Below are positions 2,985-4,662 of a stretch of DNA of 64,000 nt, one piece after another. The DNA comes from Chitinophagales bacterium (GTDB taxonomy: Bacteria > Bacteroidota > Bacteroidia > Chitinophagales > Chitinophagaceae). The position numbers were made by a program, and so were the translations under genes. The stretch covers positions 1-64,000 of the forward strand of contig JAATFV010000236.1 in assembly GCA_015655015.1 (NCBI GenBank), given 5' to 3'. Within the stretch, counting starts at the first letter, position 1. Every line of letters begins with the position of its first letter. Below the pieces are notes generated by a model, which saw only the letters and a program-made list of their open reading frames with translations, made no database searches and was not told where the DNA came from.

Positions 2985-3019
2985 AATAGGATAATCGGAA
3001 TATTTCCGATTATCCTATT
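2985..3019. repeat. Perfect inverted repeat IR1 (16-bp arms, TAT spacer), candidate AbiEi operator and/or terminator
   Basis: AATAGGATAATCGGAA-TAT-TTCCGATTATCCTATT; arms are exact reverse complements; followed by a T-rich tract. Confidence 0.85.
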
Positions 3020-3120
3020 TTTATTTTTCAATATTCTCGTAGAGTTTTCTTCGGAAAGATTTCAAGAATATTCATAAGGTATTGATTATTAATGCAAATA
3101 TTCAAAAATGTTATTTTTTG

Positions 3121-3153
3121 ATAAGATAATCGGAATATTTCCGATTATCTTAT
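3121..3153. promoter_or_regulatory. Perfect inverted repeat IR2 (15-bp arms, TAT spacer) directly upstream of abiEi-like gene; candidate autoregulatory operator
   Basis: ATAAGATAATCGGAA-TAT-TTCCGATTATCTTAT; same core as IR1, 135 bp downstream of it. Confidence 0.85.
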
Positions 3154-3161
3154 TTATTTAT

Positions 3162-3169
3162 TACATTTG
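3162..3169 (+). promoter_or_regulatory. Candidate Bacteroidota -7 element (TAnnTTTG) for the AbiE pair
   Basis: TACATTTG, 3 nt before the ATG at 3173; fits the TAnnTTTG consensus. Confidence 0.5.
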
Positions 3170-3172
3170 CAT

Positions 3173-3811
3173 ATGGAAATCTCTCAAATCATACGGTCCT
3201 ATGCCGCCCAACCTTTGACGCATCAGGTGTTATTATCTTTCTTAAAGAAGTATAGAAGACCGAATGATAAGGTGCATGAATTGATCCGGCAAGGGAAGCT
3301 GGAAGCCATCAAAAAGGGTTTATACATTGCCGGTCCGGCTATCGGAGCAGGAAAACCTGAGCCTTTCCTGGTAGCTAACCATATCCTGGGCCCAAGTTAT
3401 ATTTCTTCCGATACAGCACTTTCCTATTATGAGTTAATCCCGGAACGTGTTTATGAGATATCATCCATGACAATTAAGGCTTCCCGAAGTTTTGAGACCC
3501 CCATGGGTTTATTCAGCTATACACGACTTCCATTGCCCTATTATTCCTTTGGTATCCGGCGGACTAAGTTATCAGATGAGCAATACGCTCTCATAGCCTC
3601 GCCGGAAAAGGCATTGGTTGACAAGATAGTCACTACTTCAGGCCGCCTGTTAAGAAGCATTCAAAGCGCAAAGAGCTATTTACTGGAAGACCTGAGAATG
3701 GACGAAGACAATTTAAAGGAATTTGATACAAAGGCCATGGCAGGATGGCTGCCCGATGCTCCCAAGAAAAATAGTTTATTGATGATTATTAAGATGATCG
3801 AAAGTTTATGA
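3173..3811 (+). CDS. AbiEi-like antitoxin/transcriptional regulator of a type IV toxin-antitoxin system
   Basis: MEISQIIRSYAAQPLTHQVLLSFLKKY..., winged-HTH N-terminus with YISSDTALSYYELIPE; 4-nt overlap with AbiEii-like gene. ORF track starts at TTG 3167; ATG 3173 preferred. Confidence 0.85.
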   Translation: MEISQIIRSYAAQPLTHQVLLSFLKKYRRPNDKVHELIRQGKLEAIKKGLYIAGPAIGAGKPEPFLVANHILGPSYISSDTALSYYELIPERVYEISSMTIKASRSFETPMGLFSYTRLPLPYYSFGIRRTKLSDEQYALIASPEKALVDKIVTTSGRLLRSIQSAKSYLLEDLRMDEDNLKEFDTKAMAGWLPDAPKKNSLLMIIKMIESL

Positions 3812-4662
3812 TTAAGGAGTGGTTGGATACTTACAAGCCTGCGAATAAAACGGAAGCCCTGGCAGCCCTGCGGGAGATCATGCAGGAAATTGCCCTGGCA
3901 GGCCTGCAACGTGCTGGTTTTTTTGAAAAAGCGGCTTTTTACGGCGGAACAGCCTTACGGATATTTTACGGCCTGGATCGTTTTTCGGAAGACCTGGATT
4001 TTTCCCTTTTAGAAGTTAATCCCGATTTTTCCCTGGACCAATACCTGGAAGCCGTTCGCGTTGAATTTGCATCTTTAGGTATGCAGGTATCTATAAAGGA
4101 AAAAGAAAAAACAAATAAAAATAATATTGAATCGGCGTTCTTAAAATCTGAGAGCATATGGAAGGAACTCGTTCTGGAGAGTGTCATTCCGCAAAATGGA
4201 TTGGATGAAATTGCAAACATTAAAATTAAACTGGAGGTTGATACGGCGCCGCCACTGGGATTTGAGACGGAAGAACGACTCCTCCTGCAGCCATTTTCCT
4301 TTTATGTTAAATGTTTTGTCATTTCTGATCTGTTTGCCGGTAAGATGCATGCCCTATTATTCCGAAAATGGAAGAATAATGTAAAGGGCCGGGACTGGTA
4401 TGACCTGGAATGGTATATTAAAAAAGGAGTGTCTTTACATTTGTCCCATTTCCTCTTAAGGGCGCAGGATAGCGGGGACTGGCCTAAAACAACCATCACC
4501 GAAAAAGAATTCCGGGAATTGCTACGTGAAAAAATAGATGTTATTGATATGAATCGTGTAAAGGCGGATATCAGCCGTTTTATTCCTGAGCCCAAAGTGC
4601 TGGATATTTGGTCCGCGAAATATTTTCATGATCTGGCGGATCAGTTAAAGATCATAGAATGA
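3808..4662 (+). CDS. AbiEii/AbiGii-type nucleotidyltransferase toxin
   Basis: FYGGTALRIFYGLDRFSEDLDFSL: hallmark GGTALRxxYGxxRxSxDLDF nucleotidyltransferase motif. Confidence 0.92.
   Translation: MIKEWLDTYKPANKTEALAALREIMQEIALAGLQRAGFFEKAAFYGGTALRIFYGLDRFSEDLDFSLLEVNPDFSLDQYLEAVRVEFASLGMQVSIKEKEKTNKNNIESAFLKSESIWKELVLESVIPQNGLDEIANIKIKLEVDTAPPLGFETEERLLLQPFSFYVKCFVISDLFAGKMHALLFRKWKNNVKGRDWYDLEWYIKKGVSLHLSHFLLRAQDSGDWPKTTITEKEFRELLREKIDVIDMNRVKADISRFIPEPKVLDIWSAKYFHDLADQLKIIE

Follow-up and report, generated by a model that had tools for sequence, protein, structure and literature searches.

AbiE is a widespread family of phage-defence toxin-antitoxin systems, few of which, notably examples from Streptococcus and Mycobacterium, have had their regulation worked out. 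These are type IV systems, in which the toxin is toxic when produced alone, AbiEi neutralises it without contact, and the pair gives phage resistance. The locus considered here carries two perfect palindromes, IR1 and IR2, in front of an abiEi-abiEii pair, and raises the question of whether they are the DNA sites through which the antitoxin governs its own genes. The best explanation overall, to which we give a probability of roughly 0.88, is that both are AbiEi operators and that AbiEi would repress abiEi-abiEii by binding them. Coordinates (Table 1) refer to the window, by which we mean the whole 64-kb stretch of DNA that was analysed.

Table 1. Features of the abiE locus in window coordinates
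Feature	Position	Strand	Description
IR1	2985-3019	.	Distal; candidate auxiliary AbiEi operator; 16-bp perfect arms; terminator-like on the + strand
IR2	3121-3153	.	Proximal; candidate main AbiEi operator; 15-bp perfect arms; centre 36 bp before ATG
-7 element TACATTTG	3162-3169	+	Bacteroidota consensus, numbering from PMC6847099; +25 from IR2 centre
abiEi	3173-3811	+	Antitoxin, putative wHTH autorepressor, 212 aa; fold matches SagAbiEi 6y8q, Rv2827c 1zel
Arg29 and recognition-helix (residues 30-39) codons	3257-3289	+	Covary with operator half-site
abiEii	3808-4662	+	Nucleotidyltransferase-type toxin; PF08843 9.9e-34; PADLOC AbiEii PDLC02293 1.3e-120

The abiE genes and their upstream palindromes

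Sequence comparison identifies the two genes as an AbiEi-family antitoxin (wHTH N-domain plus C-domain) and an AbiEii/DUF1814 toxin in one operon, the start of abiEii overlapping the stop of abiEi by 4 bp. The product of 3173-3811 matches the PADLOC AbiEi model (2.3e-75), and its profile matches both the S. agalactiae AbiEi structure 6y8q (E 3.8e-4) and AbiGi, an antitoxin of the same fold (PDB 9hlo, E=3.9e-4). The best PDB fold matches of its AlphaFold (AF2) model, which has a mean pLDDT of 95.6, are 6y8q and Rv2827c (1zel). A PDB sequence search with the single protein returned nothing relevant; it was the profile search that gave matches. AbiEi has no Pfam match at 0.001 and scores under the NCBIfam AbiEi cut-off, and we therefore regard it as a divergent branch. 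By gene content the locus is a member of AbiE, and we infer that it works like one. The G+C content of the pair, 36-45% versus 54-59% for the preceding esterase, suggests acquisition from elsewhere. No conserved esterase-abiE neighbourhood was seen among the esterase orthologues checked, and in an empty-site comparison from the helicase side the helicase orthologues had differing downstream neighbours. An AbiEi from another order of the same class (L138) is 68% identical to that of the window and has the same predicted leaderless promoter and operator, a likeness that suggests horizontal transfer of the cassette.

IR1 (AATAGGATAATCGGAA-TAT-TTCCGATTATCCTATT) has arms that are 100% complementary around a 3-nt centre, and IR2 (ATAAGATAATCGGAA-TAT-TTCCGATTATCTTAT) is built in the same way. 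The two have a perfect core in common, and a single arm difference, GG in one and AG in the other, is accompanied by the matching change on the opposite arm, CC and CT. Their centres are 135 bp apart, and they are contained in a 52-nt direct repeat of 85% identity that also measures 135 bp from start to start. Coordinates, arms and repeat confirm the original prediction of twin perfect palindromes at this distance with a compensated difference. A 25-bp core that takes in all the half-site bases conserved across the family is complete in both; with three mismatches or fewer allowed, the window contains two occurrences (0.02 expected) and the 8.1-Mb genome none beyond IR1 and IR2. On a weight matrix for half-sites, derived from 54 homologues that are themselves also scored with it, the four half-sites of IR1 and IR2 tie for top among all 9-mers of the window. 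Extra half-sites had also been proposed near 2945 and at 3047-3050; they rank about 269th and about 291st on the same matrix, and we rejected them as operator parts, taking them for noise.

Linkage to abiEi and covariation with its recognition helix

Searches run in independent directions, one from the motif and one from the protein, agree that the palindrome is linked to abiEi. A search of 399 genomes of the order for the exact form ATAATCGGA-N5-TCCGATTAT gave 16 sites. Fifteen of these lie 20 to ~160 bp upstream of a separately found abiEi homologue, the remaining one falls within an unrelated coding sequence, and the reversed pattern, used as a control, has no occurrence in the same genomes. 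From the protein side, 54 of 55 close homologues (AbiEi at least 46% identical) have a site of the same geometry at a fixed position upstream of the gene. A scan that presupposed no motif found a palindrome in 43 of the 55 upstream regions, compared with 26% of shuffles. The conserved half-site is (G)ATAATCGGA, and more distant AbiEi proteins (~41% identity) from another class of the phylum keep a variant, GATAATCGA-N7-TCGATTATC, in the same place, together with Ser29. The claim that the palindromes are AbiEi operators is well supported by this placement and by the real AbiEi/AbiEii pair alongside; the occurrence throughout genomes, away from abiE, that had been named as the finding to speak against it is not seen in the 399 genomes.

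The operator also varies in step with the protein. The recognition helix begins at residue 30 in the AF2 model, and among all 212 columns of AbiEi it is residue 29, just ahead of that helix, that best tracks one base of CGG (z=9.0, 45 non-redundant homologues). Departures from Arg29 occur in at least five branches of the tree, namely a Gln/Glu clade, Phe in L034, His in L077, Ser in L138 and Ser in the distant class, and in each of them at least one half-site of the operator is altered as well. There are exceptions: L053 has Ser29 yet retains CGG, and the operators of L004 and L075 change with residue 29 unchanged. At residue 31, a change from Asn to an aromatic residue or His goes along with AATC becoming ATTC. 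An automatic mutual-information ranking over all columns was noisy and laden with phylogeny, and it gave equally high scores to C-terminal columns such as L160. Covariation of operator and recognition helix is confounded by phylogeny, relatedness being controlled only in part, and is suggestive and not proof. In one sub-clade of eight homologues (L005-L007, L009, L010, L042, L094, L096), whose AbiEi has Gln or Glu at residue 29, the operator is asymmetric (AACCGA / TCAGATT) and its orientation is fixed.

Promoter position, tandem operators and alternative readings

Bacteroidota promoters have the consensus TTTG at -33 and TAHHTTTG at -7, with T at -12 (PMC6847099). Such a -7 element starts exactly 25 bp past the operator centre in 11 strict homologues, the window's included, and in 6 looser ones. 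The predicted +1 in the window is 3174, within the ATG at 3173, which should leave the abiE mRNA without a leader. The end of IR2 is 9 bp short of the -7 element, and IR2 should span the -33 region; the locus thereby has the promoter-overlapping inverted repeat that is typical of AbiE. In a second promoter class the -7 element is found exactly 25 bp before the centre of the proximal operator, a further operator often lies more upstream, and promoter and start site then fall between the operators.

Doubled operators are common among the relatives. A second site (at least 14/18) lies 62-63 bp upstream of the proximal operator in 21 homologues, while control scans never rose above 13/18. The distance is 63 bp in L008-L012, L036, L039, L044, L046, L047, L053, L054, L057, L074, L076, L095, L097 and L101-L103, and 62 bp in L019; several homologues have a Bacteroidota promoter between the paired operators, for example TTTG-N19-TATATTTG in L053. 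The second copy agrees with the proximal site of its own genome at 15.7/18 positions and with those of others at 13.0/18, and thus usually carries its own genome's variant, a pattern that fits both copies being read by one AbiEi. At 10.5 bp per turn, 63 bp corresponds to 6.0 helical turns and 135 bp to 12.9. The window, where the distance is 135 bp, and a single relative with 71 bp depart from this spacing. IR1 is therefore best described as an unusual and probably independent duplication of the operator, and, 135 bp having no counterpart among relatives, a role for it is argued from sequence identity. Cooperative binding and looping between IR1 and IR2, which the original prediction had put forward, would have to act across this atypical distance. 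We regard IR2 as probably the main operator and IR1 as probably an auxiliary one.

IR1 might instead be chiefly an intrinsic terminator of the upstream esterase/SusCD operon, which would leave IR2 alone as the AbiEi operator. We consider this unlikely, though deserving of some weight, and the two roles are not exclusive. IR1 lies 67 bp past the esterase stop codon, its 16-bp stem (only 5 GC pairs) has a predicted stability of -20.5 kcal/mol, and a T-rich tail, TTTTTATTTTTC, follows. A terminator, however, would have no need of the full 25-bp core of IR2 that IR1 contains, many homologues likewise have a second upstream operator, and no similar hairpin follows the esterase orthologues of related genomes. 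The suggestion that the repeats control the esterase/SusCD operon finds no support in those orthologues either, terminator-like as IR1 is.

Much less probable is that the palindromes act as RNA hairpins, that is, as riboregulators or stability elements and not as DNA operators. Perfect symmetry and a compensated arm difference are what such a reading would lead one to expect, IR1 and IR2 are both predicted to fold stably, and members of the 63-bp class would have the proximal site within their 5' leader. In the window's class, however, transcription is predicted to start at the ATG, downstream of IR2, which would therefore be outside the mRNA. The eight-homologue sub-clade conserves its asymmetric site even though the hairpin is broken, and the site covaries with the recognition helix of a protein. 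The compensated G/A difference itself, at 13 bp from the centre, falls beyond the conserved core. In the order, symmetry at that distance is 0.39 versus 0.26 expected and beyond 12 bp is near expectation; the change thus belongs to a weakly constrained flank and is not a family requirement, and we rejected extended symmetry as a rule of the family. In the distant class the arms stay long and their changes are paired (L145 vs L146, for example). A compensated change could be explained without an RNA hairpin, by protein contacts with the dyad and flank or by palindrome-correcting template switching. A dispersed REP-like or mobile-unit element flanking abiE by chance, which the 52-nt direct repeat might bring to mind, has a negligible probability: many abiE-free copies would be required, yet the 8.1-Mb genome holds just the two, and the concentration of copies at abiEi in the 399 genomes already contradicts it.

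Comparison with characterised systems and a proposed mechanism

Autoregulation by AbiEi is known; what we believe to be new here is a compact operator, its fixed spacings and the covariation of its specificity. In S. agalactiae, AbiEi represses its own promoter through inverted repeats (PMC3985639, PMC7319586), and autorepression through inverted repeats is likewise established for Rv2827c (PMC7319586). S. agalactiae AbiE (PDB 6y8q) resembles the present locus in having an abiEi-abiEii pair with a wHTH antitoxin, which is our best fold match, and an AbiEi that binds and represses through promoter-overlapping repeats. Each 'IR' of that system, however, is one monomer-bound 23-bp arm, the two arms being 3 bp apart (PMC7319586), so that each palindrome here would correspond to the whole IR1-IR2 pair of S. 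agalactiae. The conserved 11-bp half-sites there, TGTTGCTTTTA-N27-TAAAAGCAACA, are 38 bp apart (PMC3985639), a geometry that belongs to that one system and not to the whole family and that is absent here, where across 54 homologues conserved half-sites of 9-11 bp are separated by 3-5 bp and lie 14 bp centre to centre. The operator sequence also differs, the promoter here is of the Bacteroidota -33/-7 type, and a 26-nt leader in S. agalactiae contrasts with the leaderless mRNA predicted here.

The twin arrangement more closely recalls Rv2827c-Rv2826c of M. tuberculosis (1zel), where an AbiEi-like autorepressor has two upstream sets of inverted repeats, one of them over the promoter (PMC7319586). 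Those sets are 4 bp apart and show negative cooperativity (PMC7319586), whereas the spacing is 135 bp here and 63 bp in most two-operator relatives. AbiGi (PDB 9hlo) has the same antitoxin fold by profile, but the partner here is an AbiEii-type toxin and not AbiGii. In the openly accessible papers searched, we found no description of a Bacteroidota abiE operator.

From these comparisons we infer the following sequence of events. Two AbiEi molecules would bind each palindrome, one on each half-site GATAATCGGA, with the CGG end read by the N-terminus of the recognition helix in the region of Arg29. AbiEi on IR2 would cover the -33 region and sit directly upstream of the -7 element, and should for that reason obstruct RNA polymerase, so that the leaderless abiEi-abiEii message is repressed. 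A fall in AbiEi would then open the promoter, and antitoxin would be made again. IR1, as an upstream second copy, would most likely serve as extra AbiEi binding, through higher occupancy or AbiEi titration, and may double as a terminator of the esterase operon.

A broader reading joins these elements, and our confidence in it is evenly balanced. Bacteroidota AbiEi proteins would use a compact dyad operator unlike that of Streptococcus, with a small code at the start of the recognition helix in which Arg29 specifies CGG, Gln/Glu, Phe, His or Ser go with altered sites, and an aromatic residue or His at 31 goes with a change of AATC to ATTC. The operator would be locked at exactly +25 or -25 bp relative to the -7 element, and where there are two operators they would stand exactly 63 bp, six helical turns, apart, so that paired sites flank and trap RNA polymerase, and one class would have a leaderless antitoxin mRNA. 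The comparison predicts where and how AbiEi should bind in dozens of Bacteroidota genomes, which residue should set specificity and which promoters should be cross-repressed, and thereby opens to direct test both the specificity of the operators and the question of what doubling them is for.

Other branches of the family have other sites. In other phyla (L020-L033; Deltaproteobacteria, Krumholzibacteriota, Spirochaetes and others) the compact palindrome that precedes the genes of AbiEi relatives is a different one, TATGTCC-N7-GGACATA, and in this set Lys29 pairs with TCCA and Arg29 with TCGA (L020, L021). A divergent Chitinophagales subfamily (L081, L084-L088, L090, L093) has another motif, TTTCTAAAAATC...GTAGAAAAATAGAAA, directly before the start codon; its half-sites are widely spaced and possibly closer to the Streptococcus geometry.
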